NCBI GenBank assembly: GCA_023055425.1
Contig: JALGPY010000009.1
Location: forward strand, 53,878,616 to 53,942,615
Origin: Linanthus parryae
Lineage: Eukaryota > Streptophyta > Magnoliopsida > Ericales > Polemoniaceae
Length of the DNA: 64,000 nucleotides
Direction of reading: 5' to 3'
Below the pieces are notes generated by a model. The model saw only the letters and a program-made list of their open reading frames with translations. It ran no database searches and was not told the DNA's origin. Positions 15,825-55,226 of the stretch are shown piece after piece (positions within the stretch are counted from its first letter, which is position 1; each line of letters starts with the position of its first letter). The position numbers and the translations under genes are program-made.

Positions 15825-15833
15825 TATACTTAA

Positions 15834-17660: not shown

Positions 17661-17666
17661 AGTTTT

Positions 17667-17684
17667 TGGGGCCGTTGCCAGAGA
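17667..17684 (+). other. Decayed Athila PBS (copy A)
   Basis: TGGGGCCGTTGCCAGAGA against the functional TGGCGCCGTTGCCGGGGA, three differences, 6-7 nt after the LTR end. Confidence 0.7.
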
Positions 17685-17831
17685 CTTTTAGCGGTTTATT
17701 TAGTATTCAGAATTAATTTGCAGAGTATTTTTATTTTATTTTAATTTTTCTTTTATCTCACTGCTCTTGAGATCTTTGTTTTTCAGAAACAACTTCTCAA
17801 AGACTACAGACGCAGACACCGCGAAAGAAGG

Positions 17832-34765: not shown

Positions 34766-35877
34766 AACCTTCACTTTTTTATTCACTCTGTCCTCCATTT
34801 CAGGAGCCCTTAATTAGTTTAGACAGTGACTTACTAGATTCTTCAGCGGCCCAGAGTTGCAACGAGGCCATATCTTCATACTGATTTCACGTTTCCTTTA
34901 GGTGTACAAACTTCTGTTGCGACCCAATACCCTAGACATCTCTGTCAAGCTATTCTTGTTCCTTAAAGAGATTTTGCTTTTACTGTGGAGGTTAACAAAG
35001 ATAGCCAATTAGATCTAAGCTCTAAAGCTCAGCTGGTCTATGTGGCATGCAGTCATACTTGTAAACCCAAAAGCTTATGTCTAGCATTATGTTGACGTTG
35101 AAAATAAAAGAGAAAGGAAGAGGAAGATGATAACATAAAATGCATCCACCAAGACTCCTAGGAATCCAATAAATGGAGTCTAAATAGTATACCTGGAGTA
35201 TACTCAACCAAAGAAATTGGGTTCTTCTTTTCAACAATAAGAAAAGAGCGTACCTGTGAACTTACTACTTGAACACCTCAAACAGAATAATTACCATCAG
35301 CAACAAATCCACCCAGTTGATACTCGAGCTCATGCTTCCTCATAATCCTTCGGGAATGCGATCAAGTCACGAAAACAATAAGTCCTGTAATTTTGGATTT
35401 GATGAGACCCAGTTGATTCATAGAACATGATCCTAACTACCAAGAAGAAACATCTTACTATAAGGGCGCTTTCTCCAATGACTTGCGGAGTCTTAGATCG
35501 AAACCATGAGTACTGGAGCTTGCTGAAGATCGGTCATAGTCCTTATAATGTCAAGAAGCCACTCTTGCCCCTGTTAAATTTGCCAATAGTTAGTTGAGAA
35601 GCCACATCAATAAGAAATCTTTGGGTTTCTCAAAGATAGAGTGAATTGTGATTTTCAACTAACTCAAAGATAGAGAATTGGTTCGACTTAACTTCAGCAT
35701 GCAGGTACTCAATACTGTTTAGCCCAAGGAAAGTGAGAGAAGATGCAGGAGCTCAATGACAAGAAGAGTCCTTGCTCCTCTGATAATAAAGAATAAAGAA
35801 AAACAAGTAACATATTGGACTGTAATTTCTCGCAAATAGTATTCTCGCACTGTAATTTCAAAATTTACCTCTGCAGC

Positions 35878-36127
35878 ATCAGAAATTGAGCTTGCAAATT
35901 GGACTCCTTTTGCTGGAGCTGCAACAGAGTTTCCACCTGATATATCTTGTAAGTCTCCTAATATAAGAAACAAAAGGGAAAAAATAATAAGGATACGAGT
36001 AAAGACACAACTTATGAACCTCATAATTAAATATAAACTTAGCTGGGTCAGTTTGCTCCACAAGCCGAGACTCTAGATTCTCTATTCTTTCATCTATCTT
36101 TTCTTGTGCTCTTCCCTGCTGCGTCAT
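35878..36127 (-). pseudogene. Coiled-coil exon-like pieces (copy B)
   Basis: Counterpart of 12737-13040: MTQQGRAQEKIDERIENLES and RLVEQTDPAKF, then, after an intron-like gap, an 80-90 nt piece ending AG/GTAAAT. Substitutions are about evenly spread between pieces. Parent unknown. Confidence 0.35.
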
Positions 36128-37120
36128 ATTTTTCTGTTTTTCATCGTTCTCATTACTTCCTTAAACTCCATCTTCCTGCAGTGCAGCAATAAATTCTTTA
36201 CCATAAGCAAAAGGAACCCAACTATGTAAATCAAGATTGACACGATATATGCTTAACAAGCAACTGAAAATTCCATGTCTACAGGACAGTCCCTGTCAAG
36301 AAATGCAGTTTTAGTTTATCTTTCAGTTATATACAGTTGTTGTAAAGCAAAAATAAATTCTGCATATCCCTTTGGCCTTTCATCTCCGACTATGTAAATC
36401 AAGATTGCCGAGACATATATTTAATAACCAACTGAAAAAACCAAGTCTGCAGGGCATTCCCTATGAAGAAATGCAATTTTAGTTTATCTTTCAGTTATAT
36501 ACAGTTGTTGGAAAGAAAAAATATATTTATGTTACTAGTTATGTAACCAAATACTTCAGAGAGAACTTGTATTACCTAGGAACAGTGGGTGACAACGTGA
36601 CATTATTGGACATGATATTGTGCTCCTTTATAAACAAAATCATGGCTTCACCACAGTTCCAATGCATTGATATACCATAAAATCAAAAACGCATTCAATG
36701 ATGCATACCAGGAAGCATTCATTGATGCATACCATAAAGTATTGCTCATTCTGCTGTGAGACAACCAATGTACTAAGACAAAAAAAGTAAAGTGATGACA
36801 ATGCAAGTGTTTCCTAAAGTAAAAGTAGAACGGTAAAAGTACATATATGAATTTCAGATCAAATTGGGGTTGACAATGATTGTATAGTACACAGAAAAGT
36901 GGACAATCATAGGCTGGAAAACTATGTATTAAGGACTTACAGTACACATATAATGCTATCAGGACGGCAACGAGGAGATAAAAACTGACGATGATCCTTA
37001 TTGGATGAACATGTTTAGAACAAGTGTGAACTGTGAACCTTGGATTACTTTCTTCAAATACTGAAACAGCTAAATTCAGGCACTTTCCCAATGTATACAA
37101 ACGGCAAAAATAACGGCGGA

Positions 37121-38298
37121 TTATAGCATTTCCTTAATAAAATCAAGGTTCAAGCTGTCAACAACATTAAATGTCAGGCCCCAAAATTCTCGCCCCGGGT
37201 AATTCACAGCTTTCACAGCTCTAATCTTCGCATACTAAACATTTAGTGATAGCTGAACTATCCGTCCCATACCATCCGAGCTTTCATCTGAGGACTAACT
37301 CCAATTCCAATGTCTTGCCCACTTCTCGCAATCTTGAATGACAAATTCCTTCTAAGACGGCAATGCAATCCCCGTATTCGTCAACTGAATCCCATCAATG
37401 GCTAGGATTACATCACCCGAGAGTAACCCGTCTCGTGATTCAGAGTTTCAAAAAACGGCAAACGCGGCGCGGAGCGGCCGTGTTGTAACGGAAGCGGCAG
37501 AGAGCGCGACCGTTTTTCCCGTTACGCGTCATGTGAATTTTATGCACACAAAAAACGGCCGTTTCGCGTCGGGAAAACGGAAAAAACGGGGAAAACGGCA
37601 ATTTTGTGTTGGGAAATCGGGAAAAAACGGGAAAAACGGAGAAAAGGTCCGTGAATGTTTTCTAAAATTCACATATTCGATGCCCGTTCTCCGTTACAGT
37701 CCCTCCGATATAGTCCGATCCCGTTACACGCGACCGCGACCGACACGTCATCCGCTTCCTTTTTTAAAACCTTGCTCGTGAAGCAGCAGAAAATGCCCGA
37801 ATCTCGGGTACAAGAACACCAGGGAAAGCCTCTTGAACAGGCAATCCAACAAACACTACATGTGCAAAGACTATCACATAAGCAAATATTATATTGGCAA
37901 TAACACCAGCTGAAACAACAAAAACCCTAACAAAAATTGGCATGTTTTTTTAGTAGATTCACATCATCTACATGGATATCATTGTCAGGAACGTGATCAG
38001 GAAACCCCACAAACCCACCCAGAGGAAATGCTCTATTATTGGACGAATTTACTTACATGTATGCCCTGAAGAGAAGCTGCCAGAAAATGACCACTTTCAT
38101 GAACAACAATGATAATCGCCAAACAAAAAGAGGGTTTTCGCAGGTGAAGTGAGATGCGATGGGGAGAGTTGGGGATGAGATTGGAGAAGATAGAGATTTG
38201 GGGATGTGGGTTTTGGGTCTGAGGCGAAAATCGAAGACGGGGGTTCAAGATGTGACTAGAGAGGAAGAAGATGGTAGAGAAGGGAGGCTAGCGATCAT
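37121..38298 (-). pseudogene. ARASP-type protease pseudogene, copy B fragment 1
   Basis: Nearly identical to 13967-15147, with the same HESGH zinc motif, PDZ piece (SGDVILAIDG), C-terminus NLDFIKEML and the same defects. The shared lesions show that decay preceded duplication. Confidence 0.72.
37440..37774. mobile_element. hAT-like MITE (copy B)
   Basis: 335-bp counterpart of 14286-14623, with flanks CTCGTGAT (37432-37439) and CTCGTGAA (37775-37782). Confidence 0.6.
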
Positions 38299-38477
38299 GG
38301 TGTTTCATGAGGGATTGGGTTAAGGAAGCCCGTCATGGGCTTAGACTTGAAATTCAAGCCTGATGGAACATATGAATTGGGCTTCGATTATGTAATTTTA
38401 CTCCAAGCCCGGTCCAAGCTCTCTATTACATTCAAGCACAACGGGGAAAATGAAAAATAATATGCATATTTACTTAA

Positions 38478-38984
38478 GGGTAATGGACACTAAACTTACC
38501 TGCAAAATGCGTTTTGGGACACAAAACTCCCATGCAGTTCCAATTTCCATTACAACCCTCTGCAATATACACACACCAGTGGGACATACAACCAACTGCA
38601 GTTTCAATTTTCCACTACATCCCCTACAATATATATATATATATATATGGGACATTTGACCCCAAATTGATAACGGGGTCCGAATTCTAACGCAAATCAT
38701 CACATGTTATTCACGTGCTAGCTCTATAGATGAAGAAAAAACAACTTCAAAGACCACTACGTGATTTTGCAGATGATGAATTTTCGTTAGAAATTTGACC
38801 CCAATACAATTTGGGATTAAGTGTCCCACAGATGTATATTGTAGGGAGGTTTTGGGAAATTGAGGCTACAGGGGGTTATGTGTCTCACAAGTGTACATTG
38901 CAGGGGGTTGTAGTAGGAAATTGAAAGTGCATGAAATTTTGTGTCTCAAAACGCATTTTGCAGGTAGGTTAGTGTCCATTACCC
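38478..38984. mobile_element. MULE-like MITE (copy B)
   Basis: Counterpart of 15327-15824 with the same 9-bp flanks (38469-38477 and 38985-38993) and the same TIR GGGTAATGGACACTAA. The internal TA repeat is longer here (about 38629-38648). Confidence 0.65.
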
Positions 38985-39639
38985 TATACTTAATTACATA
39001 AGTACACTCTATAAATTACACGTTTAATGTCATGTATCAAATACAAAATGAAGAAGTACAATGCATTTTCGTACTCAATGAAGATTTTACAGCGGAAGAC
39101 GGTATATAATAACAAATCATTTTACTACGTTTCCCATAACCGACTCTTTCCATATTCGAATGATTTTTTAAGGGTGGATGATGAAATACCGTTTTTTATT
39201 GAGCGAATTTCGATAATTTATGTCTACAATTGGGCTCGTTTATAATTTTATAACGTTGGGGAATGTATTAGTATTTGTCTAATCATTCCGGGCCGCTGTG
39301 AAACTTTGAAGAACTTGATTTCACATATTAATATATCCTAATTTCCATTTTTTTAATTCGTAATTCTCCCCTTTATTAATTTTCCTAATCAACTCTTAAT
39401 TTTACTAAATATTATCTACCAGGGAAAACCCTAACCTCTTACGCCCATGTATGTCATATGTAAACACACTCCATCCCACCTCCACCGCGTCTCTCTTCCT
39501 CATCGTACAAACCCAAAAGAAAACTTGTATTCCTTCCATGCATACATACGTACCTTTCCTATCGTTTCTCACCATATGTTTCTCTCTCTAACAGATCTCC
39601 CATTTAAGAGTTATCTGTGAGCTTATATTGGGCTGTTTT

Positions 39640-41518
39640 AGAATGAGTTATCATAATTCTGAGCATGTTTTATCCGACAAAAACTTGCATGTTCTAAAAA
39701 AAGAGGAAGTTGTGCTTAATTGCGAAATTTGTTCATGCATAATTTGACGTTATTTTGTAAATGTAATCGCTTAGTATGGTTATTCGTGTTGTCTTGACAG
39801 GAATGTATTAGTATTGAATTCGGAAACAAAGAAACGCTCAAGCGGATAAAAGAGAAGCAAAGTTGGAGAAGCTAGAATGACCAGCCTTCACTCTTTTGCA
39901 GACATCTTGAATTCTACAAGTAATTTTGGAGTGATACTGGTGGCAAATGAAAGTAGACTTCAAGAGGTTCCCAGTGACAGGTCACGGAACCAAAACAGAG
40001 TCTAGATGAAAAAGATATGGTCATGCAAAGTTGAAGCAGTTGCTGCCTGCGTGGCTGGCTGTAGCCACGCATGCAAAGAGCAGAAATGTCATTTTTCGGC
40101 CACTGTCTGTGTGGCTGGCGGTAGCCACACAGACCGAGAGTCACGAGCTGATTTTTGACATTGGTTGTTGTTTGTGTGATTGCCTGCGTGGCTGGAAGTA
40201 GCCACGCAGGCAGAGAGTTCGAGACAACTTTTTTGGCTAAGTATGGACAAGGTTGGCTGCTGTCTGCGTGGTTGGCTGTAGCCACGCAGCCCGAGAGGAA
40301 GAAGAGAGAAAAACAAGGCTAGAAGACCCCTGTATGCGTGGCTGGCTGCAACCACGCAGCAGCCATGCAGGCAGGGGAGAGAGAGAGACTTTTTGGAAGC
40401 TGACAGGGCCACTGTCTGCGTGGCTGGCAGTAGCCACGCAGGTAGCCGCGCATGAAGTGGGAAATTCTGAGGCGGTTTGGCTAGTGGCAGTTTCGTGAAT
40501 TCAGACAGTTTTTCAGGAAACTTCTCAGCACTATATTTTTTGTAAGGGACTTCTCAGCACTACATAAAGGAACGTCCAGAGCTCGTTTTTGACACAGAAT
40601 ACACCCAAGGAGAAGTCTACGCATACTCATAGAGCACGGAAGTGTGAATCCAGAAAGACACTCGTTTGATTTCAATTCTCTCTTTATTTCAAAACATCAT
40701 TATTTGATTGTTTAAGCTAGTAGCTAAACTTTTAACCTAGGTTTTCGGTCAACCTAGGGTTGCTATCAAGTATTTAGTTCTACTTTGTTTATGGATTCAT
40801 GATCTCCGGATCCTAATATCAGCAGTTGTATTTGATATTTTAGCTTTGATTTTACTATTTATGCATGATCAAAGTCGCGAACCAGAATTGCTACAGACAC
40901 ATCCCGGCATACGAAAAGTGACTGTTTAGGGTTAGGAAGAGAAGACATAATTTAGCACCTTGCCCTGATTGACCAAACATAGAAGGGAAAATAGGACTAG
41001 CCTGAGCATCTAACCAATTGTGAACGGTTTTGACCGAGGCCTTTAGGACAGGTTAGAAACCCTATCAGCCTTAGAACGAGACTGCAGATTTAGGTAGCTT
41101 AACAGGAGCCGAAAATCTGAAGAATTATGACTACGTGTAGCAACTGAAAAGCTACTACACTACTGGTACGTGGCACAAATAATCTGAATGCTTTGTAACT
41201 TCATAACCAAAAGAAAGAAAAACTGAAGAAATCCTAGGGGATCGTGGAATCTAGTATCTTAAACCCTAGAATTACAACACTCTAGATTATTATGAAATTC
41301 TCACAAAAAAGTTTTACTTTTTAGTTATTTACTTTCGTTACTTAGTTCGTAATCATAAACTCTCAAAATATTCCTCTTTTTTATGCTCTGTTCTTTGAAA
41401 CTGATTACTTGAGAAACCTAAAAAAAAATCCTCGTGGGATTTCGATAATCGGAGTGGAAAATACTATTTATACTACTTGATTTGTATACTTGCGAACAAC
41501 ACGCTAAATTGCGCATGA
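39640..41518 (+). repeat. Old Athila-type LTR (copy B, full promoter region)
   Basis: It ends TTGCGCATGA next to a decayed PBS. It contains six hairpins (40048-40441), a TATA-like CTATATTTTT about 90 nt after them (40531), and then an R/U5 part colinear with the intact Athila LTR (CTAGGGTT, TATGGATTCATGAT, TAGGGTTAGGAAGA). The left end is not sharp. It is a different Athila subfamily from 45077-58513. Confidence 0.65.
40048..40441 (+). promoter_or_regulatory. Array of six U3 hairpins (TGCGTGGCT...AGCCACGCA)
   Basis: Six inverted repeats lie at 40048-40071, 40105-40134, 40181-40212, 40264-40289, 40335-40358 and 40417-40441. All share the core GTGGCTGGC.GTAGCCAC with variation. The arm changes are compensatory: unit 2 has CTGTGTGGCT paired with AGCCACACAG, so both arms changed together, and unit 3 extends to 13-bp arms. 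This suggests the pairing itself is or was maintained. Confidence 0.8.
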
Positions 41519-41524
41519 AGTTTT

Positions 41525-41542
41525 TGGGGCCGTTGCCAGGGA
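41525..41542 (+). other. Decayed Athila PBS (copy B)
   Basis: TGGGGCCGTTGCCAGGGA, two differences from the tRNA-Asp PBS used by the intact element. Confidence 0.7.
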
Positions 41543-41687
41543 CTTTTAGCAGTTTATTTAGTATTCAGAATTAATTTGAAGAGTATTTTTCTTTTATTTT
41601 AATTTTTCTTATCTCACTGCTCTTGAGATCTTTGTTTTTCAGGAACAACTTCTCAAAGACCACAGACGCAGACACCGCGAAAGAAGG

Positions 41688-42204
41688 ATGGCAGATTTAC
41701 CAGCAGATCCAGAGGCACATACTCCAGCTCATATGGCTTGGTACATCGAGGAGTTGATCGCAGCAGGCTTTGCTACCCGGAACAACCAGAGGAAATACAA
41801 CGGATCTGGAAAAGCCTTGGTGGAGAACTTTGAAGTCCCTTCGGGAGGACATGAGCCAGCAATTGTAGTGCCAGAAATCACTACTGAGCACTGCGATTTA
41901 AAACCCTCCACCATCCAGACTGTTCAGAATCTCTGTTTGTTCCATGCCAGAGCCAATGAAGACCCGAATGACTTTATTGGGAAGTTCGAAGATTACTGCA
42001 AAAAGGTCCGGTACAAGGGAGTCGATGTAGTGGCACTCAAGTTGATCATGCTCCCATACTGCCTGTACGGAACAACCAAGGACTGGCTCGAATTCTGAGA
42101 TCCCAGATCCATCACTACATGGCAGGGATGTGTTGCAGATTTTATGGAAAAATTCTACCCCGCCTTTCGCTAATCCAACTGCAGGGCGAGATTTTATCAT
42201 TCAA
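41688..42204 (+). pseudogene. Athila gag N-terminal stub (copy B)
   Basis: Open from ATG 41688 to TGA 42096-42098 (136 codons). Landmarks: MADLPADPEAHTPAHMAWYI, KALVENFEVPSGGHEPAIVV, NDFIGKFEDYCKKVRYKG and CLYGTTKDWLEF. The TGA is a point change where copy A has CGA. The homology continues past it to LQGEILSF and then joins protease fragment 2 at about 42204. As in A, no protease, RT or integrase remains. Confidence 0.85.
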
Positions 42205-42551
42205 ACTGAAAGTGGAAATAACACCAGTTGAAACAACAAGAACCCTATCAACAATTAATATATTCTTTTTTAGTAAATTCACATTGTCAACAGGGATATC
42301 ACTGTCAGGATCATTATCAGGAAACCCCCACAAACCCACCCCAAAGAAATGCTCTACAATTGGACGAATTTACTTACATGTATGCCCTGAAGATAAGATG
42401 CGGAAAAATGAACACTTTCATGAACAACAATGAGCCGTCAAAACTGTAATTGCCTCTGTTGTGGCCAAACAAAAAATGGGTTTTCGCAGGTGAAGTGAGA
42501 TGCGATGGGGAGAGTGAGCATGATATTGGAGAAGATAGAGATTTGGGGATG
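42205..42551 (-). pseudogene. ARASP-type protease pseudogene, copy B fragment 2
   Basis: Counterpart of 18341-18688: GFPDNDPDSDIPVDNVNLLK and KNILIVDRVLVVSTG. It abuts the gag stub at one end and the Gypsy LTR end at the other. Confidence 0.65.
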
Positions 42552-44995
42552 TGAGTAACACCCCCAAAATAACCAAGCCGGAAGCCCGAGTGTGTCACTC
42601 CGTACCCGAGAAGAAGTCGGATACAAGGACGTTCAAAATTAGATCCAAGCAAACTCAATTAAAGGTCTTAAAGTAATACTTCCTTAAAATTCACATCGTT
42701 GTGCTTCAAACACAGGCATAAACCAAACTAAAATTCAATGGTAACTAAAATATATCCTATTTATTAAATATGAAAGTTTCTGGAATAAAGTGATGGATCG
42801 CGCTCCCGTTAAGTCAAGTTCCCATCCAAACCTGTGTTGAAGAAAACAGAAAGAGAACACCACAGTTTCCAACATCAGCAATAAATACTAGCAAGCAAAC
42901 ACCCACGCATGTAAAATGATGATGAGGCAATTTGTAAAACAGTATGCAATTCGTCATGTAGTGGTTTGTCTTAAACACATCGGAAGTAAAAGCTTGAAAC
43001 TAATAAGAAAGCAATATAGATTCAAATTTCATTGTATTCTCCTAATTTCATACTCATTGTCTAAATTAGGGAATTGTAAAATCACATATTCTTCCATTTT
43101 CTATTAATAAACATCAAGTACAAAATCACAATGCTAATTTGTTGATACGGGGGGAAGAACCAACCATCTCGCAAGCATCCAGAACCTTAAGTGTCAACAC
43201 CCCTTTCAAACTCTTGCGGCCAGAAGAGTGAGTACAAGGAGCTATTCGGGGCATTGCAACCGGATTAAATAAAATAAATTGGACGAGTGACCGTAGTCAA
43301 CACGACCAAGCCAAAAGTAACCATGTTACAACCCCGCACCACTCTTCCACTTTACGTTATCATCAATTATTAGATTCTTGCGATATTTTCAAGAATGTTT
43401 CAACAAGTGGAGTCAAAGGTTCAAATAGCACATCATGCATACAACACACTTCATTTTGAGACAAGTAGAAAGAAATCATTTGACACGAAGGGCGATAGGA
43501 ACACTAGGCCTGACATGTTTACTAAACTCAAATACAAGTAGCTACTGCGACTTAGTCGTGGTATTCGACGTATCCCTCGTCTGATATCTCGTCGCCGTTA
43601 ACAATATTCTAATCAAACACAATTCCACATAACGATCAATCGTGCTACTCTACATGCCATGCAATGATTGTCGGCCACGGTCTTAGCGCCCCATGTTAAT
43701 TCCACCTAGAACGTCGTTTTAACCCTCACACTACATTCTCAAAAGCTAATTCATTTTAGCATACTAGAACACTATTTTATTTTACATAAAAAGACTATTT
43801 AATTAAAGTAATAATATATTATAACATTACATATTTCTCCAAAATTGTCTAACGATAAACTACCGCTTGGCGAAATGATCGAACGAGACACAATACTCCA
43901 AAAGTTTTGCTAAACAACAAACCCGGTTAAGTGTTTATTGAGATACAATGCCTTAGTGGCAAAGCAGTTTATTTTTGTGAAAAGCTAATACTTTACTGTG
44001 AAAGATTTAGTCAAGAAAGTGAAAGGGCAGTTAAAATTCGTGAAAAGTCCTAGAACACCAAATTATGCTTCTAACGGTCTCGTTCTCGACTCCAATTCAA
44101 TTAATCGGCGATTACAACTCGCCTTAGCAACCCAATACACAAAACAAGTGATAGTTTCTAATTAATCCTATTGTTTCGGCTTGATTTTACCACCTACATA
44201 AACTAGGGTTTATGGGTAATCATGAACGAGGATGAATCAGGTGATTCAAGACGATGATTAACTACGCAAAACAAAGTGAATAACATTCCGAAATTCGAAT
44301 AATGATTTGATACTTACGTGAGAAGTGGGGAAATTGAGAGATTAAGCGGAGGAGATGGAGGCGGAGAAAACCCGACTGGGTTCTTGGTGGCCGAAGGGCT
44401 GCTGGAAATCAAAGAGGTCATAACGACCAATAGAAGAAGTCAACGTAGGAGAAGAGATTTGGAAAAAGAAGAGATGAGAAGAATCTGAAAAAAGAAGAAG
44501 AGTGCTGACCTGGAGGTGGCGGTGGTGACTGGTCACGCAACTTTTGCTGCTGTGCCGCTGCTCCTATCTCTCTCGGACATAGAACAGGCCACACGAGAGA
44601 GAGAGGGATGATGGGGCTGGAGGCTCAGCATTTCAGAGATAAAGAAATAGGGATGCGATGGTTAAATGCCGTGAGAGAGAGAGAGAAACGGCGATTTTTT
44701 GGGTGTTGGAGAAAAAATCGACGAGAAACCAATTGACAGGAGGAGTGAATTGGGTTTATATGAAGGAGAAGATCATTCTACCGTGAATGAGTAGAAGTTT
44801 ACAAAATTCAGTTGTAAAAGATACTTATACACCTCTAGTTTAGGTTAAAGACACTTATTACCCCCTAGTTTAGGTTAAAGACACTAATCAATTTAGGTAA
44901 AAGTCACAAAACCCCCAAGACTATAATAACAATGAAAATAAAAACCCAAAAAGTTATACTGAAGTCATAAAAACACATGTATCCGCAAAACGGGG
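42552..44995 (-). repeat. Gypsy (Tekay-like) LTR, copy B
   Basis: The minus-strand LTR ends GGGGGTGTTACTCA at 42552. A minus-strand TATA-like TTCATATAAACCC lies at 44752-44764. Two near-perfect GTTTAGGTTAAAGACACT repeats lie at about 44838-44885. Upstream in minus sense are a PPT-like GGGGGAAAGACG and a pol tail (45001-45071). No second LTR of this element is seen. Confidence 0.55.
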
Positions 44996-45076: not shown

Positions 45077-45480
45077 TGATAACGCCCAATTAGGGGTTAT
45101 CTTTTAGCCTGATTTCACGAGTATTTGTGTCGGAATTAGCGGTTTTTGCCGAAAAATGCCTTAGAATGCCTCGGGAATCTAGAACGAGACGTTTATTGTA
45201 CTTGCTGGATTTCTGCTTATTTCTTGCTATATTTGGATATGATCGCGGGTTTTCGTTTGTGTTGCCTTTTCAGGAACAGGTTCGGGAGGTGCATCGGGAA
45301 GCGTGCCGGGACCAAGCCGGGACCGTCTCGGGAAACGTGCATAAGACCGGGACACGACGGAAACACGGAAAAGCAGAAGTACACCAAAGAGGCAAACCGG
45401 GAGCATCAGGCAGAAGAGTGGGACCCAGGGGACCAGACCTGGCCCACCAGAGGACCAAGTGGGCCCCACCTACCCCCACG

Positions 45481-45608
45481 GCCTGCGTATATACGCAGGC
45501 CCTGCGTATATACGCAGCACCTGTGTATATACGCAGGCAGTGAGGGTGGTGGGGGATGTTGGTTGGGCCCTGGTTGCGTATATACGCAACCCCTGCGTAT
45601 ATACGCAG
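45481..45608 (+). promoter_or_regulatory. U3 array of five TGCGTATATACGCA palindromes
   Basis: Perfect 20-bp palindromes GCCTGCGTATATACGCAGGC (45481-45500) and GGTTGCGTATATACGCAACC (45572-45591), perfect 16-mers at 45502-45517 and 45593-45608, and a 16-mer with one mismatch at 45521-45536. The core is constant, and the flanking bases of each arm change together (CC/GG against GG/CC). The array ends 83 nt upstream of the TATA-like box, as expected for transcription-factor sites or a cruciform element. Confidence 0.85.
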
Positions 45609-45690
45609 CCAGTTTTGACTTTTGGTCAAAGACGGTGGACCGATGGCAGATTCCGTAATTTCAAGCACAAGCGTTTTCAGGAAACAGCAC

Positions 45691-45700
45691 TATTTAAAGA
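45691..45700 (+). promoter_or_regulatory. TATA-like box of the Athila LTR
   Basis: TATTTAAAGA in a GC-richer context, preceded by CAGGAAACAGCAC. The same CAGGAAAC...AGCACTA arrangement precedes the TATA-like box of the old LTR in copy B (near 40515-40540), which supports a promoter role. Confidence 0.55.
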
Positions 45701-46677
45701 CTCATCCAGACTCGTTTTGAGGGATCACGGAGACACAGCACAATTCTCAGCACAACCGAAGGACAAGTCAGAGCATTCACGGAGAGCACGAAAGCGCGAT
45801 TCGAGATTCGAAGACTTAGTTTGATTTCGTTCTCTCTCTTTATATTCAGAAACTGCGTTTTGTACTATGTCTAGTCATAGCTAAACTTTTCACCTAGGTT
45901 CTCGGTGAACCTAGGGTTTCGTACTCAGATTTTATGATTACTATGATTATGGATTCATGATGATTGTCTTAATTCAGCAAGTTGTATCTGTTATTCTGGT
46001 TTGATTATTATCGTATATGCATGATAGGATTGATCACCCAGGATTGCTATAGACCCGAGCTTGTAGGTGAAAACGTCAAGTTAGGGTTAGGAAGAAAAAC
46101 CAGGATTTAGTACCTTACCCTGATAGACCGACCAGAGAAAGGGAGATAGGGCTAGCATCTAAAAACGTGAGACCAACTGTTAGAGAATTTGACCCGGGCC
46201 ATTCGGACAGGTTAGAAACCCTAACAGGATTAGACCGAGACTGCAGACTTAGGCAGCTTAACAAGAATCCGAAAGTCTGCAGGATCGGGATTACGTGTGG
46301 AATCTGAAAAGTCGCTGCACAACTGGTACGTTGCACAGATATCGAAACTGCTGAGTGTTTTCATAATCGAACGTAAAATTGAATTCTGTAGAAACCCTAG
46401 GGGATCCTGGAGCCTAGTCTTCATCTATTATCGTTACAACAAAATCAGCTTATTTCAGAAAACGTCACAAAAATATTTACGTTTCTAAATTCTGTTTTTA
46501 GTTTAGTCACTACAATCACAACCTACTCCTCCTGGTTACTATTCTTGGAAAACCGAAACTGACAACGGAAATAAACCCGAAACAGTCCTCGTGGGAACGA
46601 TAATCCGAGTCCAATTGCACCCGGTACTACAAGATTCGTACACTTGCGATAGCACGTTAGTTTGCGCATCAAGTTTT

Positions 46678-46815: not shown

Positions 46816-49173
46816 TTGATGCCCAGATTGCCTCGCGATTTGGTGACACCACTCGACAACCCGGAAAAGCTGTATACCGAACAGAACCGCAGAAACCGAG
46901 AAAGCAGGATGGCAACCAACCAGAGAGATCCACCCGAGAACACCGAAGCCGGTGGACAGGAACGAGAGACACGTACCCCAGCCCAGATGGATCGGTACAT
47001 TGAGGAGCTTGTCACAGCGGGACTTGCTGCCCGAAGCAACCAGAGAACATATAACCGATCTGGGAAGGCGTTGGTGGAAAATTTCGAAGTCCCCACCGGG
47101 GGGCATGAGCGAGCCATTGTGGTGCCCGAGATCACCGCAGAGCACTTTGACATCAAACCTTCCACCATCCAGACGGTACAAACTCTCTGCCCGTTTCATG
47201 GCAGCGCCGACGAAGACCCGAACGATTTTATCGGGAAATTCGAAGATTACTGCAACAAGGTCAGATACAAGGGGGTAGAAGCAGAGGCACTCATGTTGAT
47301 CTTATTCCCATACTGTCTTTATGGAGTAGCCAAGGACTGGCTCGAATCCCGACCACCCCGATCCATCACCACATGGGAGGAGTGTGTCACGGATTTTTTG
47401 GCAAAGTTCTATCCCGTCTCCCGAGTCATACAGTTACAGAGCGAGATCCTGTCATTCAGACAGAAGATGGGGGAGACGGTGGTGGACGCATGGGACAGGC
47501 TCATGAGATTGGTCAAACGATGCCCGAACCACGGTTTTGGAGATGCGAAAATCCTGCAGGTTTTCTACCATGCCCTGGACAGGGAGAACGCCGACAGGAT
47601 TGACAGAGAGGCCGGAGGAAACTTCTTGTATCACGTGGACAAAGAAGGTGCGTATGACCTGATGAAGCAGTTGGCCAAGCAGGACACCCGACTGTTTGAC
47701 GATCGCAGGATGGCGGCTAGAGCCGAACCTGCAGAGGATGACCGGATAGACAACCTGGCCAAGATCGTTCACGACTTGGTCAAGAAAGTCTACTCGGATA
47801 AGAAGACTGTTGCAGCAGTCGAGGAACCGGATCTGGACACAGCCATTGAGGAGCTAAGGACTGAAGATACCAACTACGTACAGCAGCAGTGGGACCCGAG
47901 CCGGTACCGACCGGGTACGAGAGACCATCCCGGGTTTCGATACGGAAACGCGAACGCAGCAGTTTATGCACCGGGATTCCAGCACAGGCCACCAGCCCAG
48001 CAGGCTCAATCAGTCCCGTCAGCACAGCAGTACGACGCTCAGATGAAAGAAATCAAGTCCATGTTCCAGACTATGGAATCCCGGTTCAAGCACATGGACA
48101 CCTTGACGGCAGATATGCAGACAACCAAAACGTCACTGCGCGCTTTGGAAGTACAGGTGGGGCAGTTAGCACAGAAGCTAACAGAGAGACAGCCAGGAAA
48201 CCTACCCTCGAACACAGTAAATAATCCACGGGCTCAGATCAATGCTATCTCCACTCGGAGTGGATTGGCACTGCAGGATCCACCGTATCCCAGCCACGCA
48301 CGTGCAGAAAATTCGAAAGAAGTAGAACGCAACTTGTCGGGGCAGGATAACAGCACAGTCGATCGCCCCCAGCCGAAGGTCTCGGTTGAGCAGGATGCAG
48401 TGCAGAACGAGACAGGTGCAGAAACTGTACCCGTCTCCAAGGAGGTCCCGTACCCCTTGCGAACACGAAAGAGGGATGACAGCAAGGACTACGCCAGGTT
48501 TCTCGAGATGTTCAAGCAGCTGCAGATTAACATACCTTTTGCTGAGGCTTTGGCTAAGATGCCCACTTACGCCAAATTCCTCAAGGACATCTTGTATGGG
48601 AGGAGGCGAATGAGCGATTTCGAGACCATAAACCTGACGGCAGAAGTGAGTAATTGTGTGAAGAATGGGATACCGAGGAAGAGAAATGATCCTGGCAGTT
48701 TCGTCATACCGGTCACCCTAGGTAACGCTTACACAGGAAAGGCTCTGTGTGACCTAGGGGCCAGCATCAACCTGATGCCATTAACGATTTTCAAGAGTTT
48801 GAAAGTCGGTGAACCCCGACCCACCAGAATCATGCTGCAGATGGCAGACAGGTTCGTAAAACAGGCCTACGGGGTTATCGAGGATATTCTGGTCAAGGTC
48901 GGCGAGCTTATTTTTCCGGCAGATTTCTTCATCCTGGACATGGAGGCAGGGGAGGTACCGCTCATACTTGGCAGGCCGTTTCTGGCCACAGGCGAAGCTA
49001 TGATAAACTGTAAGAGCGGGGAGCTGACCATGCAGATTAACGAGGAAAAAGTAAAATTCAACGTTTTCAAAAATCTGCAACTGCCGAACTACTACGACCA
49101 CGAGGACATCTTTGCTATCGATGTGGTGGACGAAGGCTGGGAAAACGAGGAGATGGACCAATTGTGGGAATAG
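46816..49173 (+). CDS. gag-pro: Athila gag-protease, 785 aa
   Basis: Gag forms the particle and the aspartic protease matures the polyprotein. Residues about 55-200 match the conserved Athila gag: the IEELVTAGLA stretch, NDFIGKFEDYCNKVRYKG, AKDWLESRPPRSITTWEECV (about 171-190) and FLAKFYP. A capsid-like helical region follows to about 300, then a Gln-rich linker with PGTRDHPGFRYGN. There is no CCHC zinc knuckle; the region where Athila relatives often have one contains no Cys. Protease: CDLGAS near residue 645 and the flap/C-terminal ILGRPFLATG near 717. Met 46816 is the first in-frame ATG after the leader; Met 46909 (MATNQRDPPE) is an alternative start that aligns with the MADLPAD start of the old stubs. 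It ends in UAG 49171-49173, and the same frame continues after it. Confidence 0.9.
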   Translation: MMPRLPRDLVTPLDNPEKLYTEQNRRNRESRMATNQRDPPENTEAGGQERETRTPAQMDRYIEELVTAGLAARSNQRTYNRSGKALVENFEVPTGGHERAIVVPEITAEHFDIKPSTIQTVQTLCPFHGSADEDPNDFIGKFEDYCNKVRYKGVEAEALMLILFPYCLYGVAKDWLESRPPRSITTWEECVTDFLAKFYPVSRVIQLQSEILSFRQKMGETVVDAWDRLMRLVKRCPNHGFGDAKILQVFYHALDRENADRIDREAGGNFLYHVDKEGAYDLMKQLAKQDTRLFDDRRMAARAEPAEDDRIDNLAKIVHDLVKKVYSDKKTVAAVEEPDLDTAIEELRTEDTNYVQQQWDPSRYRPGTRDHPGFRYGNANAAVYAPGFQHRPPAQQAQSVPSAQQYDAQMKEIKSMFQTMESRFKHMDTLTADMQTTKTSLRALEVQVGQLAQKLTERQPGNLPSNTVNNPRAQINAISTRSGLALQDPPYPSHARAENSKEVERNLSGQDNSTVDRPQPKVSVEQDAVQNETGAETVPVSKEVPYPLRTRKRDDSKDYARFLEMFKQLQINIPFAEALAKMPTYAKFLKDILYGRRRMSDFETINLTAEVSNCVKNGIPRKRNDPGSFVIPVTLGNAYTGKALCDLGASINLMPLTIFKSLKVGEPRPTRIMLQMADRFVKQAYGVIEDILVKVGELIFPADFFILDMEAGEVPLILGRPFLATGEAMINCKSGELTMQINEEKVKFNVFKNLQLPNYYDHEDIFAIDVVDEGWENEEMDQLWE

Positions 49174-49542
49174 ATTGACAGCATGTACGGGGAAGAAAAA
49201 GAGAAGACTCGGTGCGAGCACGCCATGAGAGCCGAAGACTGGACCACTTTGCACCGGGACGAAGACGGCGGGCAAAAGATGATTCTGGTCCCGTCACTCA
49301 AGGAACCACCCGCACTGGAGCTGAAACCGCTCCCGAGCCATCTCAGGTATGCGTATATTGGTGAAAATAGTACTCTGCCCGTAATTGTTTCGTCTCGTTT
49401 ATCTCAGGAACAGGAGCAGAAACTGCTGGAAGTATTGCGAGAGCATAAGGAAGCAATAGCCTGGACGATTGCAGATATCAAGGGGATCAGCCCCTCCTAC
49501 TGCATGCACAAGATCCGAATTGAAGAAGGCAAAAACCGGTGA
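49174..49542 (+). pseudogene. pol: Athila pol, segment 1 (before RT palm)
   Basis: In frame with gag-protease after the UAG. It reads SMYGEEKEKTRCEHAMRAED, then LKPLPSHLRYAYIGENSTLP, VIVSSRLSQEQEQKLLEVLR and AIAWTIADIKGISPSYCMHK, the usual Athila connection to RT. It ends at a TGA caused by a one-base frame change around 49533-49537. The UAG may be a point mutation or, less likely, a readthrough signal; no known readthrough context is evident. Confidence 0.85.
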
Positions 49543-50700
49543 TTCAGCCCCAGCGGAGACTGAACCCGAACATGAAGGACGTTGTGCGAAAAGAGGTCAT
49601 GAAGTGGCTGGAAGCGGGAATCATCTACCCCATATCGGACAGCACGTGGATCAGCCCGGTCCAGTGCGTGCCCAAGAAGGGGGGTATTACGGTGGTGCAG
49701 AATAAAGATCAGGAGCAGATTGCGCAGCGCACCGTTACGGGCTGGCGGATCTGCATGGACTACCGGAGGCTAAACGATGCAACACTGAAGGACCACTTCC
49801 CGCTGCCATTCATGGACCAGATGCTGGACCGGCTCGCCCATCATGCCTACTACTGTTTTCTGGACGGGTATTCCGGGTACAACCAGATTTGCATAGCCCC
49901 GGAAGATCAGGAAAAGACGACGTTTACCTGCCCGTACGGTACGTTCGCGTTTCGACGCATGCCGTTCGGGTTGTGTAATGCTCCTGCCACGTTCCAGAGA
50001 TGTATGATGGCAATTTTTTCCGACATGATCGAGACAAATCTGGAGGTCTTCATGGACGACTTTTCACTCTTCGGGGACAGTTTCGATGACTGCCTGTTCC
50101 ACTTGGGCCAGGTTCTGATCCGATGCAAGAAGGCGAATTTGGTGCTCAATTGGGAAAAGTGTCACTTTATGGTCACCGAGGGGATCGTGCTGGGTCACAG
50201 AATTTCCAGCAAGGGACTCGAGGTGGACAGGGCTAAGATCGAGGTGATAAAGCAGCTTCCATACCCGACGAACGTAAGGGCGATCAAAAGTTTTCTGGGA
50301 CATGCAGGATTTTACCGAAGATTCATCAAGGACTTTTCCAAGATCACAAAGCCGCTTTGCGCGTTACTCGGAAAAGACGTACCCTTTGATTTCGACGCAG
50401 CATGTCGGCAAGCTTTTGACCACTTGAAAGAGAAGCTGACCACAGCCCCGGTTATAACCACGCCAGATTGGTCACTCCCATTTGAGCTAATGTGTGACGC
50501 CAGCGACTACGCAGTCGGGGCAGTTTTGGGCCAGCGAAAGGATAAGGTATGCCACGTCATTTATTATGCGAGCCGGGTACTCAACGATGCCCAGCTCAAC
50601 TATGGCACGACAGAGAAGGAACTGCTGGCTGTGGTGTATGCACTGGACAAATTCAGGCCCTATTTGGTCGGGTCAAAAGTTATCTTTTTACCGACCATAG
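49537..50700 (+). pseudogene. pol: Athila pol, segment 2 (reverse transcriptase and RNase H start)
   Basis: RT domains in order: PISDSTWISPVQCVPKKGG (fingers), RICMDYRRLNDATLKDHFPL, the catalytic FMDDFS (YXDD equivalent) near 50049-50066, LSWEK-type thumb LVLNWEKCHF, and FLGHAGFYRRFIKDFSKI. RNase H begins LMCDASDYAVGAVLGQ with the first catalytic Asp and [16 protein letters not shown] with the Glu. The frame is lost at about 50685-50692 by one base, just before the next RNase H motif. All catalytic residues seen are intact; only the frame is broken. Confidence 0.92.
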
Positions 50701-52207
50701 TGCTCTGAAATACCTGCTGGACAAGAAGGACGCAAAACCGAGACTGTTGAGATGGGTACTACTGATGCAGGAATTCGATGTGGAAATCCGTGACAACAAG
50801 GGAGTTGAGAACGTGGTAGCGGATCACCTATCCAGACTTGAGAACGTGAAGGTGGACCCGGTGCCGATCAAGGAAAACTTCCCGGACGAGCACATCATGG
50901 CAGTCAAGATCGGGAGACCATGGTACTATGCCATAGCCAACTATTTGGTAACTGGTACGCTTCCCGAGGATCTCACCCCGTCGCAACGGAAAAAGTTCAT
51001 TGCCGAAAGTGGACAGTATTTCTGGGACGACCCGTACTTGTTCAAACAGGGGGCCGACAACATCCTGAGAAGGTGTATCCCGACCCACGAGGCCTGGAAC
51101 GTGATCCGACACTGCCACTCATCACAGTGTGGGGGTCATTTTGAGGGAACGCGAACAGCGCATAAAATACTGCAGTCCGGGTTTTTCTGGCCAACAATCT
51201 TCAAAGACTGTCACGACTATGTGCAGGGATGCGATAGGTGCCAGAGGACAGGAAACACGTCACACCGGGACGAGATGCCAATGACAGTGTGGCAGGAGGT
51301 AGAGCCATTTGATGTATGGGGGATTGACTTCATGGGTCCGTTCCCGTCTTCGATGGGGAATCTTTTCATTCTGCTGGCAGTAGATTATGTGACAAAGTGG
51401 ATCGAGGCGATCGCGTGTCAGAAAAACGATGCAGCTACCGTTGAGCGTTTTCTGAAACGCAACGTTTTCACTCGTTTCGGGACTCCCAGGGCAATGATCA
51501 GCGACGAGGGCTCTCACTTCATCAATCGGGTTTTTGCGAAAGTTCTGAAGCAGTACGGCGTGTCAGTTCATAAAGTCTCGTTACCCTACCATCCGCAGAC
51601 AAACGGGCAAGCCGAGGTGTCGAATCGAGAGATTAAGAGCATACTCGAGAAAACAGTGAATCTCGGCCGAAAGGATTGGTCCGTCAGACTAGACGATGCG
51701 CTTTGGGCATACAGGACAGCTTTCAAAACACCGCTGGGAATGTCACCATACCAGCTCGTTTTTGGGAAAGCGTGCCACTTACCGGTGGAACTGGAGCACA
51801 TGGCGTATTGGGCCATCAAACTGCTGAACTTGGACCAGAATCTAGCAGGGGATAAGAGGAAGATGGCACTGCTGGAGTTGGAGGAATTCCGCAGAACGGC
51901 TTTCGAGAGCGCCAAAATTTACAAAGAGAAGACAAAGAAGTGGCATGATAACCATATCACGCCAAAGCAGTTTAACGAAGGCGACAAAGTGCTTCTCTAC
52001 AATACCCAGATGCGGTTCTTTCCGGGGAAGTTGAGGTCTCGTTGGTCGGGACCGTTTAACATTAAGCAGATTTTTGCCTGGGGGGCATTCGAGCTGGAAA
52101 ATCCAAAAGACAACTCCAGTTTCAGGGTGAACGGGAACCGGATCAAGCCGTATCTCGAGACCGCCGAAGTCGTCAAAATAGACCCGGTCTATTTTGATAA
52201 TCCGTAA
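50690..52207 (+). pseudogene. pol: Athila pol, segment 3 (RNase H end and integrase)
   Basis: The frame resumes at [20 protein letters not shown] and [10 protein letters not shown] (RNase H end). Integrase: an HHCC zinc-binding domain with [11 protein letters not shown] and GCDRCQR; core Asp in [10 protein letters not shown] (near 51321) and in ISDEGSHF (near 51502); core Glu in the [12 protein letters not shown] region (near 51615). A GPY/F-like C-terminal segment reads [16 protein letters not shown]. There is no chromodomain, as expected for Athila. It ends at TAA 52205-52207. Integrase would insert the cDNA in the nucleus. The open frame extends back to 50549, but that upstream part is out of register with RT. 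Confidence 0.92.
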
Positions 52208-52403: not shown

Positions 52404-52434
52404 TGGGTATATACGCAGTACTGCGTATATACGT
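52404..52434 (+). promoter_or_regulatory. Internal palindrome pair upstream of ORF3
   Basis: GGGTATATACGCAG TA CTGCGTATATACG: two degenerate copies of the U3 palindrome TGCGTATATACGCA, arranged head to head, outside the LTR. A near-identical pair follows ORF3 at 55193-55226. Confidence 0.7.
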
Positions 52435-53161
52435 AAACAGGAAAGAAAAAAAAATTCGAATTTTTTTCAAAACCCCGGGGGTATTTTGGTCATTTCGACC
52501 AAATTAGGTTATAGCACAAGGGGGGGGGGGACGGGTAGCCATTGTTGGCACCTCCCTTTCTCTCTCTACCTCCATTTCCTCTCACTTGAAGAACAAGATT
52601 TTGCCTCGGACCTCCAAATCAAAATCCGGGCACATTTCTGGAATCCCCTCGTCGCAAGGAGCAAGATTCGTCCATCAAAATCCAGAAACAAGCGAAAATC
52701 GAGCGGGCAATTTCCATCAAAAAGTGAGGTGTTCTTGAGGAAAAGTGCAGATTCAAAGGTGTTAGAGCAAGAACTAGCAAAAACCGAAGAAGGGAACGTG
52801 AACAAGGAGATCGAGGGCTTCGATTTGGTGGGCTCGGAATTCAATTCCGGGCAGTTGACTTTTCCGGCGACTTTTCCGGCAACCACCGGCGGTTTTCCGG
52901 CGACTTTCCGGGCAGAATCTCCGGTCTTCACCCCTGTTTAGGGAAGGTCGAAAATCTCATCCCTCGCTTTATTTTCCGTTTTGGCACGGCCCGTAGCCGG
53001 GCCCGTTATTTTCGGTAATTTTGCATTTGGAGCGGCACTTGCCGTGTGGACCTCTGGTAGATCTTAGGAGGACTATCTATTGAGACACACTATTTTTGTG
53101 CACGTTTCACGTTTTTGCCCTATTTCGCGAGTCGGCACGTTTTTCGAGATTTTGGTCTGTT
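52435..53161 (+). other. Leader between pol and ORF3
   Basis: No convincing gene. An ORF of 151 codons (52486-52941) is Lys/Ser-rich, with a repeated TTTTCCGGCGACTTT-type motif at its end. It could be a spliced leader or short basic peptide but is unsupported. A run of 10 G lies near 52521. Confidence 0.4.
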
Positions 53162-54976
53162 ATGGAGTTTCATGTGCCCGTCGTAGACCCTAACCGAGAT
53201 GACATCCCTACGGACTATGAGGCGACTGAGCTTACCCCTTTGATGTTTGACAGCTTTAGGTTCGTCAATCATTATGCCCAACATTACTTTATGACCGGGA
53301 CCAAAATGGAGCATAGCATCCCCATAGACTACCAGTTTGAGGTCGACCATACTTACATGCCGCCAGAGATGGCCGCTTATGCGAGTCGACCGGACATTTT
53401 CGGGACGTCCTTAGCGGGGTTCCCGGACTTGTCCGATACTGACTTGGTGCGTGAGTTCTACGCGAACCTCGTGCACAAGGGGGAGGGGGAAGCCAATGGG
53501 GATGTCCGTTGGGTCTATATGCGGCGTACGTTTATGTTGCTCACGGCGGATACAATCCGCCAAGCGTATCAGATTCCGATGCGCCATATCTCGTGCGCAT
53601 ATGCTGAGTGCGCTGATTACCCGCCTAACGATGCTGAGCTTTTGCGGGTTGTGACTGGGGGGCACCCGGGTGCCCATTTCACGAGAGAGGGGCCAGGCGA
53701 GATCGGCAAGAAATTGCATTCTCGTTTTATTGCTGGCCCGCCACGGTGGTGGGCCGAGTGGGTAGTTAACAGGGTCGTAGGTATTAAACACTTTACCTAC
53801 CTTGACTTCGAGTACGTACTCTTAGTCTATTGCCTTGTTCTGGGACGAGAGGTTGACATTCCTCGTCGGATTTGGGTGTATATGATGGAGCGGAACTGTT
53901 CCGGTAGCCATAAGGGATTGGGGTACGCCAACCTCATTGCCAAACTGGCGCGGAATTATGAGGTTCCGATGGATGATCTAGAGGGTGACCTACAGCCTCC
54001 TGTGCCACGGCCTTATAGGAAGCTTATTTCTCGTCACCCGGGCCCGCCTCCGCCAGTCGTTGACCTCGATGAGGATGACGATTTTATGGAGGAGGACCGG
54101 GCACCTGCACCTGCCCCTGCCCCTAGGAGGAGGTCGACTCAGGAGCGACCAGTCAGTCGCCAGGCATCGGCCGGACTTCGGCGATGCCGTACTACTAGAG
54201 AGAGTGAGCGGCCCGAGTCGAGTAGGCAGGGGACTGAGAGGAATGCCCAGCCTCAGCCTGCCCATCAGAGAGAGCAGCCGGCCCCACGGACCAACCCGAC
54301 CCCACGAGCTAGACCGACCCCGCCCCGTAGACTGCCCCGAGTGGATGAGAGATTTGAGGGCTGTCAGGGCGGACGCAAGTCCATAGGAGAGAAGGTGTTT
54401 GCGGGAGCGGGCAAGATTTGGAGAGCGTTGACGCATATCCGCCGGACTCAGCGGAAGGTCACCAAGGACACCCAGGCTGCCCTAGCTAGTATTCGAGAGG
54501 AGCAGCGGGATGCGGCTCGGCACGTAGGCCGAGACCCGCCACTTCCGCTATATTTCCCACCCACCTACTCCAGCAGCTTTACCGAGGGATGGTCGGATGA
54601 CGGGGACTCTAGCGAGTGCACGTCTGCTCCGCCACCCCCGACCCAGCCACCACCACCGACTCAGCCATCACCGCCACCTGCCAGACAGGAGAGACGGCAG
54701 CCTGGGACACGATCCCGGCAGCCTACAGGTCGTCAGGCTGGGACCCGTACCCAGCAGACAGGGGCCCGTACTCAGCAGCATTCGAGTGGTAGGACGACTT
54801 TACGGTCCCAGCCTCCTAGCAGTTGGACTGGGTCCGAGTCGCAGTCCTCGGATTACCGGCCCCGTACACGGGCACGTCAGCCGGTGTTTAGGACTGATTC
54901 AGAGAGCAGCTCGCCGGGTAGCATATCCGGTACGTCCGAGACCGGGTCAGACACGACATTTTTTCCGGACGAGTGA
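53162..54976 (+). CDS. Athila ORF3, 604 aa, plant transposon-associated protein at the env-like position
   Basis: The preferred start is Met 53162 (MEFHVPVVDPNRD); the frame is open to a further Met at 53096. The N-terminal half resembles the domain known as 'putative plant transposon protein': DTDLVREFYANLVHKGEGEA, RWVYMRRTFMLLTADTIRQA, then HFTYLDFEYVLLVYCLVLGR and LGYANLIAKLARNYEVPM. From about residue 310 the protein is low-complexity, Pro/Arg/Ser/Gln-rich with APAPAPAPRRRS and PPPPTQPPPPTQPSPPP, and ends SETGSDTTFFPDE. It has no signal peptide, no clear transmembrane anchor and no furin-like site, so the traditional 'env-like' label describes position, not visible function. It is uninterrupted, in contrast to pol. 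Confidence 0.8.
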   Translation: MEFHVPVVDPNRDDIPTDYEATELTPLMFDSFRFVNHYAQHYFMTGTKMEHSIPIDYQFEVDHTYMPPEMAAYASRPDIFGTSLAGFPDLSDTDLVREFYANLVHKGEGEANGDVRWVYMRRTFMLLTADTIRQAYQIPMRHISCAYAECADYPPNDAELLRVVTGGHPGAHFTREGPGEIGKKLHSRFIAGPPRWWAEWVVNRVVGIKHFTYLDFEYVLLVYCLVLGREVDIPRRIWVYMMERNCSGSHKGLGYANLIAKLARNYEVPMDDLEGDLQPPVPRPYRKLISRHPGPPPPVVDLDEDDDFMEEDRAPAPAPAPRRRSTQERPVSRQASAGLRRCRTTRESERPESSRQGTERNAQPQPAHQREQPAPRTNPTPRARPTPPRRLPRVDERFEGCQGGRKSIGEKVFAGAGKIWRALTHIRRTQRKVTKDTQAALASIREEQRDAARHVGRDPPLPLYFPPTYSSSFTEGWSDDGDSSECTSAPPPPTQPPPPTQPSPPPARQERRQPGTRSRQPTGRQAGTRTQQTGARTQQHSSGRTTLRSQPPSSWTGSESQSSDYRPRTRARQPVFRTDSESSSPGSISGTSETGSDTTFFPDE

Positions 54977-55192: not shown

Positions 55193-55226
55193 TGGGTATA
55201 TACGCAGGACCTGCGTATATACGCAA
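55193..55226 (+). promoter_or_regulatory. Internal palindrome pair downstream of ORF3
   Basis: GGGTATATACGCAG GAC CTGCGTATATACGCA followed by AACAG. It repeats the pair at 52404-52434, including the preceding GGTT and the following AAACAG. The pairs bracket ORF3. Confidence 0.7.

Follow-up and report, generated by a model that had tools for sequence, protein, structure and literature searches.

Promoter-proximal palindrome arrays in Athila-type retrotransposons: putative family-specific sites for a dimeric DNA-binding protein

Several plant transposons carry short repeated or symmetric motifs in their non-coding parts. ONSEN has repeated activator boxes in U3; ONSEN and Tnt1 are Ty1/copia elements, and VANDALs are DNA transposons. 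The closest described system is that of the Sireviruses, for which the excerpted parts of Bousios et al. 2010 (PMC2829016) describe element-specific palindromic units clustered 5' of the TATA box in the LTR, most of them starting 200-400 bp into it, with further copies 5' of the env-like gene. The same excerpts report that the four Sireviruses without an env-like gene have no linker copies, that the repeated motifs are absent from classic elements, that they bear a CGG-CCG signature, with the array bounding a CpG island, and that the LTR element Tnt1 has a symmetric box I (PMC2829016). In VANDAL elements of Arabidopsis, VANC proteins encoded by the element itself bind motif arrays, according to the excerpted portions of PMC5735166 and PMC10398659.

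The window, the whole 64-kb stretch of DNA analysed here, contains arrays that a sequence-only reading had placed in four LTR families, at the same place in each and with changed sequence; direct inspection of the sequence confirmed the coordinates of all of them (Table 1). An annotation-blind scan, in which a cluster meant three or more inverted repeats sharing a 5-nt arm inside 500 bp and LTR annotation was ignored, returned six clusters in 64 kb, every one already described in that reading and all six within LTRs, and none in 20 dinucleotide shuffles of the window. With 6-nt arms, four clusters were found in the window, both D arrays being missed, and none in 40 shuffled windows. The D array consists of half-sites in mixed arrangement and is detectable only with 5-nt arms; the 3' LTR of D has lost a piece between short direct repeats. 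The LTRs begin with TG and end with CA, and 5-bp target duplications, GTCTC for A and GTGGC for D, lie on both sides. LTR B is present in both copies of a segmental duplication of about 10 kb (11623-21076 versus 34734-44922, 95-96% identical), and in the duplicated copy a deletion of about 700 nt has removed the array, sparing one unit at 16888. A 70% match between B and C extends for about 300 nt and stops 25-38 nt before the arrays. Between the 5' and 3' LTR arrays there are 0 substitutions in D (1.7 expected) and 1 in A (1.3 expected), a comparison without power.

Table 1. Positions of LTRs, arrays and related features in the window, and the unit types of the arrays here and elsewhere in the genome
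Feature	Position	Strand	Details
Scan clusters (5-nt arm)	2251-2360, 7120-7280, 40051-40437, 45483-45608, 57324-57450, 61277-61442		
Element D 3' LTR	1126-2844	-	direct repeat, flanked by GTGGC
Element D 3' LTR U3 array	2247-2405	-	TGATC half-sites and palindromes
Element D 5' LTR	6000-7723	-	direct repeat, flanked by GTGGC
Element D 5' LTR U3 array	7116-7285	-	TGATC half-sites and palindromes
Duplicated B copy, lone remaining unit	16888-16911	+	rest of array deleted
Old LTR B (ends approximate)	about 39590-41520	+	similarity
LTR B U3 array	40048-40440	+	six 24-nt hairpin-like units TGCGTGGCT..AGCCACGCA
Athila A 5' LTR	45077-46671	+	direct repeat of 56917-58513, TSD GTCTC
Athila A 5' LTR U3 array	45484-45607	+	five TGCGTATATACGCA units, one change in third
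TATA-like box CTATTTAAAG of A 5' LTR	45690-45699	+	83 nt past array
Unit doublet, integrase-ORF3 linker of A	52404-52435	+	one change each; units at 52404, 52422
A ORF3 (env-like position)	53096-54976	+	Transposase_32 domain (Pfam)
Unit doublet 3' of ORF3 in A	55193-55225	+	one exact, one with one change; units at 55193, 55212
Athila A 3' LTR	56917-58513	+	direct repeat, TSD GTCTC
Athila A 3' LTR U3 array	57325-57449	+	five exact units
Element C LTR (3' LTR, end approximate)	about 60199-61937	-	similarity
Element C U3 array	61277-61442	-	five TGTTCG-YR-CGAACA units
Unit A			TGCGTATATACGCA
Unit L048			15-nt variant of A
Unit L062			TGCGTTCAAACGCA
Unit E			12-nt tandem repeats with TACGCAG
Unit C			TGTTCG-YR-CGAACA
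Unit F			AGGTCG-YR-CGACCT
Unit G			TGGTCGTACGACCA
Unit J			TCTTCG-YR-CGAAGA
Unit K			TAATCGTACGATTA
Unit D			TGATCC-TA-GGATCA and relatives

Element A encodes gag, RT-RNase H and integrase in that order (Pfam matches, ORFs of 46816-52204), with RT before integrase, unlike the Ty1/copia Sireviruses. An extra ORF, ORF3, lies between integrase and the 3' LTR, the typical position of such an ORF in Athila, and we take the lineage name Athila and the PBS type assigned to element A to be correct. Protein homology searches with ORF3 returned no relative suggesting DNA binding; its conservation is poor, and none of 18 regions searched gave a match. C and D have LTR ends and a PBS region like those of A. 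Element C gave gag matches only (aa 43-293 in L025, aa 548-602 in the window), with no RT, INT or ORF3 match, and the internal region of D matched none of gag, RT, INT and ORF3. The short element D does hold one intact ORF of 358 aa (4754-5830, minus strand) with no Pfam match, a relative of which, 62% identical, lies just 3' of the primer-binding site of a G-type element (L040). Viral contigs yielded no relatives either by protein or by the 22-mer PBS, and four matches to an 18-mer PBS were rejected, their GC-rich surroundings being unlike an LTR end. One 3.9-kb contig, titled Streptomyces clavifer (BMWJ01000030.1, L001), contains a plant-like LTR that shares this primer-binding site and has a U3 array of CACTAATGG repeats ahead of the TATA box, most likely through contamination of the bacterial assembly.

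The arrays are real and far beyond chance. In the host genome (1.51 Gb, with 7415 primer-binding sites counted), the A unit TGCGTATATACGCA has 15302 sites versus 1 for a reversed-letter control, the J unit TCTTCGTACGAAGA 7158 versus 9, and the K unit TAATCGTACGATTA 3146 versus 1. Further LTRs of this genome were sampled through every fifth of 100 listed primer-binding sites on contig 1 (20 of 7415), with 900 bases of upstream LTR each. Arrays were present in 15 of these 20 LTRs, picked blind to the arrays (13 strict, and two imperfect in L057 and L060), and the pattern of same place and changed sequence held among them. The remaining five (L046, L058, L063, L047 and L052) had no array, and the first three look like one other family. 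Of 290 shuffled segments, 0 had at least three recurrent units. Among LTR starts found by similarity to known families, 11 of 18 had strict arrays; those lacking one were the deleted B copy, L026 (minus strand), L033, L040, L042 and both L038 LTRs, the last two having no array.

A 200-kb flank to the right of the window gave 12 clusters with two scan settings combined, and none in five shuffles at each setting. Ten of the 12 lie within Athila-type LTRs and add the unit types E and F; another new type, G, belongs to L040, where two of four units are perfect, and is too imperfect for the scan. The other two clusters are an unassigned one in L034 and one a few hundred bases past an integrase match (L043). 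The latter (L043:2057-3207) is a long tandem array with CTATC..GATAG palindromes, 3' of an integrase match about 33% identical to that of Athila, and may represent the linker array of a less closely related Ty3 element. The flank and the primer-binding-site sample together hold seven unit types beyond those of the window.

The array cores had been called unrelated. Their letters do differ among families, but A and B share the repeated 6-mers CCTGCG and ACGCAG, both being built on CTGCGT..ACGCAG. The half-sites can be sorted into three classes, and some of the cores are therefore related: TGCGT/ACGCA (A, B, E, L048 and L062, with the half-site ACGCAG in A, B and E), a TCG-YR-CGA core whose symmetric outer bases are particular to each family (C, F, G, J, K), and TGATC (D). 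One LTR, L057, mixes J and C halves and includes a unit with one half of each type. A motif near CTTAGCCAAATTT adjoins the arrays in L041, L053, L054, L056, L057, L059, L060 and L062, in one orientation in J-like LTRs and in the opposite one in F and L062 LTRs.

Despite these differences in letters, the units share a geometry. It was described from 29 LTR segments (20 from the sample, 6 neighbouring and 3 in the window), of which 20 had at least three 14-nt units, giving 109 units collected with the letters fixed per type and the centre left free; two or more of these, L045 at -1540 and L040 at -1182 among them, are probably stray. Since units within one family are not independent, the following counts are descriptions and not significance tests. 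The typical unit is a 14-bp palindrome, and the two central bases form a pyrimidine-purine step (TA, CA or TG) in 106 of 109. The six half-site positions form symmetric pairs in 87-105 of 109 units, and the next four pairs outside the 14 bp in 65, 51, 42 and 30. Neighbouring units are spaced 19-22 bp apart in 44 of 89 distances, and CpG is dense within them (12.9 versus 3.7 per 100 nt). A and C have 14-nt units, D units of about 14 nt, and B units of 24 nt that lie 60-82 nt apart; elsewhere there are 3-12 units, or 25 tandem 12-mers in E, so the proposed constancy of copy number and unit size does not hold strictly. Column conservation in units versus flanks, over 10 usable of 11 pairs, was 0.87 versus 0.57 for L054/L056 and 0.94 versus 0.70 for F, slightly better or equal in five others and lower in three, where units were gained or lost; given this mixed result, greater conservation of units than flanks was dropped as proof.

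The position of the arrays is better described from the promoter than from the LTR start. In the window, the first unit lies 407 nt (A), about 439 nt (D), about 458 nt (B, whose start is approximate) and about 495 nt (C) from the LTR start. If four positions were drawn independently and uniformly from 1200 nt, they would fall within 88 nt with p = 0.0015; given that the LTRs are related, however, common descent accounts for much of this closeness. The proposed distance of 400-500 nt from the LTR start thus fits the window (407-495 nt) and fails in an A subfamily with a longer U3: in L018, which has about 550 extra nt, the array starts about 935 nt into the LTR and ends about 84 nt before the TATA box, versus 83 nt in the A element of the window. 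This longer U3 also occurs in L010 and L016. Distance from the LTR start was therefore ruled out as the conserved variable, and the promoter side is the better anchor. From array end to primer-binding site, the mean distance is 1043 nt (SD 74, n = 22). With loose patterns, a TATA-like match lies 3' of the array in 15 of 22 LTRs, in 13 of these at 73-87 nt, and none was found in the other seven. Two further features of these LTRs were observed. Most families' LTR starts (for example 45077-45101) have a short inverted repeat TGATAAC..GTTAT, kept although U3 differs. A hairpin CCTAGGTTCTCGGTGAACCTAGG 3' of the TATA box (about 45895-45917) is kept in A, L018 and L032 and nearly so in B, and D has a similar stem in other letters.

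Arrays also occur at a second site. Both doublets of A outside its LTRs, a decayed one in the integrase-ORF3 linker and one 3' of ORF3, were absent from the sequence-only reading. The window sequence around the 52404 site aligns on both sides with L014, L020 and L023, and on the upstream side only with L017; the first three, and probably L017, have two to five units at the equivalent place. By listed coordinates, the J unit recurs in six J elements at 7.46 and/or 7.57 kb from its 5' LTR counterpart, and the K unit recurs at 7-9 kb in four K elements, in each case inside the element; these coordinates suggest the same linker place as in A. Scans of C and D showed no linker cluster, and neither has a match to ORF3, itself poorly conserved. 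Sequence resembling GGGGTATTTTGGT occurs both in the linker past the doublet (52475-52502) and in the long U3 of L018, so the linker may derive from a U3 promoter.

A natural swap experiment is provided by A and its near-twin E (L031-L032). In their best matches, the two are 96.5% (gag), 98.7% (RT) and 95.7% (INT) identical in amino acids, and the 1028 nt of LTR between the TATA box and the primer-binding site are 86.5% identical. On the 5' side of the TATA box, only a 51-nt stretch can be aligned, and this foreign sequence prevents the LTR start of E from being fixed. The U3 of E holds 25 TACGCAG copies in 12-nt steps, 25 of 25 in one direction, as a direct 12-nt tandem repeat that is weakly palindromic and is present in both E LTRs. 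After the integrase stop, the linker of E has eight ACGCAG copies, which like those of its U3 share a single orientation (shuffles average 0.24, and none of 2000 has as many as 8), and no A-type palindrome, whereas the linker of A has palindromic units. With direct-repeat ACGCAG in both U3 and linker, the two places in E differ from A alike, and the half-site is kept.

Set beside the observed geometry, place and abundance, the different U3 of the near-twin and the linker match in A and E, the explanation that we consider probable is that the arrays are promoter-proximal clusters of putative binding sites for a dimeric, sequence-specific DNA-binding protein, located at two promoters. Dyad size, pyrimidine-purine centre, spacing, TATA-proximal place and second-site copies together have the look of cooperative dimer sites. 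The earlier proposal of binding sites for host or element proteins gains from the geometry of the 109 units, which points to a dimeric DNA-binding protein; binding itself we infer. One site would be a 14-bp dyad made up of a 6-bp half-site, a central TA or CA/TG step and a second 6-bp half-site. Sites would often come as doublets separated by about two helical turns, which would place bound dimers on one face of the helix. The U3 array, in many families just 5' of a TATA-like box, would drive the genomic RNA, and the smaller arrays of the same unit flanking Athila ORF3 may drive or tune a second transcript. The half-site would be family-specific and change as a set, in that most units within an LTR have it in common and the linker copies agree with them; repeat expansion, and exchange of the U3 segment 5' of the TATA box, may spread new versions. 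An arms race, as had been suggested, is a possible cause of core turnover.

None of the known factors considered fits all units. NAC factors were rejected as a common reader: published palindromic NAC sites, as excerpted from PMC4081100 and PMC4106437, are CGT-N7-8-ACG or TTGCGTG-N6-CACGCAA; NAC-like TGCGT does occur in A and B, but spaced by N4 (A) and N14 (B), and C and D have no match. P1BS, with the consensus GNATATNC in the source as excerpted, was also rejected, fitting A only, through a P1BS-like core GTATATAC.

Among candidate readers, a host transcription factor is more likely than a protein of the element. An element-encoded anti-silencing or regulatory protein that targets the units, as VANC does in VANDAL, with protein and motif changing together, is in our estimate unlikely. 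It would agree with the family-specific motif arrays, whose U3 and linker copies change jointly, it has the precedent of VANC, and Athila has the extra ORF3 as a candidate. However, C and D have arrays with no RT, INT or ORF3 match and would need a helper, and the array layouts of A and E differ despite 96-99% identity in gag-pol, the part that was compared. The searches made also gave ORF3 no relative suggesting DNA binding.

A role of structure in place of protein, with RNA or DNA hairpins in the U3 transcript serving RNA handling or as a source of small RNA, appears quite improbable. The arrays fold as RNA far better than shuffles (z -10.7 in A, -9.7 in B, -7.6 in C and -7.3 in D), but repeated palindromes of any function would fold strongly, and the L001 array folds modestly (z -2.2). 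Matching between flank pairs exceeds permuted values in A for two pairs (p 0.027), not for three or four, and in an F set that includes stray non-F units (p 0.047, 0.005 and 0.012), whereas B and C show no flank covariation. Palindrome clusters of maize Sireviruses attract small RNAs, as the excerpted parts of PMC10760457 and PMC5311732 describe. Against hairpins, the centre is a fixed two-base step and not a loop, and E keeps its half-sites even though they are arranged as direct repeats. The structure-forming enhancers suggested in the sequence-only reading are likewise less likely, since symmetry fades beyond the 14-bp unit even though the strands fold strongly. Least probable of all is that the arrays have no function, slippage and template switching making repeats and palindromes at a place inherited from a common ancestral LTR: unit number does vary between copies, the D 3' LTR has lost a piece between short direct repeats, and a single ancestral array at this place would explain the position, yet random turnover predicts neither the shared 14-bp geometry and pyrimidine-purine centre across families nor the doublet spacing of about 20 bp and the matching linker copies.

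Beyond binding by a dimeric protein, a broader proposal can be made tentatively, though we judge it less likely than not. Each Athila-type family may mark its LTR promoter and its ORF3 region with the same private 14-bp palindrome, an operator code read by a dimeric protein that co-changes in specificity, so that families would be regulated apart; Sireviruses (Ty1/copia) and Athila (Ty3/gypsy), unrelated env-like lineages, would have reached this two-site layout independently. An impression from one window becomes a testable rule for how a large class of plant retrotransposons may become active, namely shared geometry, exchangeable letters and two places per element. If a protein reads the array, the array tells which elements answer to which factor.

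The sequence-only reading knew of no description of such arrays as a family trait. For Athila this stands, as we found no description of U3 palindrome or repeat arrays in the open-licence literature searched, including the excerpted parts of PMC6911290, PMC12477314 and PMC4977677; the same layout is, however, described for the Ty1/copia Sireviruses in the excerpts of PMC2829016. Short symmetric or repeated cis-elements in U3 also recall the boxes of ONSEN and Tnt1, a likeness of description and not of sequence. As in VANDAL and VANC, judged by the excerpted sources, family-specific short motifs are repeated in non-coding parts of the transposon and change together, but the VANDAL motifs quoted there are not palindromes, and the element-encoded binder is demonstrated for VANDAL, whereas the arrays here are known from sequence. 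The palindrome clusters of maize Sireviruses are similarly fast-changing and situated in LTR regulatory regions, according to the same excerpts (PMC10760457, PMC5311732), and belong to another superfamily.

The closest likeness is to the Sirevirus repeated motifs. In both, palindromic units are clustered 5' of the TATA box in the LTR (with a TATA-like match in 15 of 22 here), and extra copies lie 5' of the env-like gene, as in A, L014, L020, L023 and probably L017; the copies after the integrase stop in E, and by coordinates only those of J and K, resemble the Sirevirus linker copies. Unlike the Ty1/copia Sireviruses, the elements here are Ty3/gypsy of Athila type. Their signatures are TCG-YR-CGA, ACGCAG or TGATC, with unit types TGCGTA, TGTTCG, AGGTCG, TGGTCG, TCTTCG, TAATCG and TGATCC, in contrast to CGG-CCG, and they often have fewer than 8 copies, doublets of about 20 bp, and linker copies also 3' of ORF3. 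These comparisons suggest that a layout reported as Sirevirus-specific within Ty1/copia apparently recurs in an unrelated superfamily.
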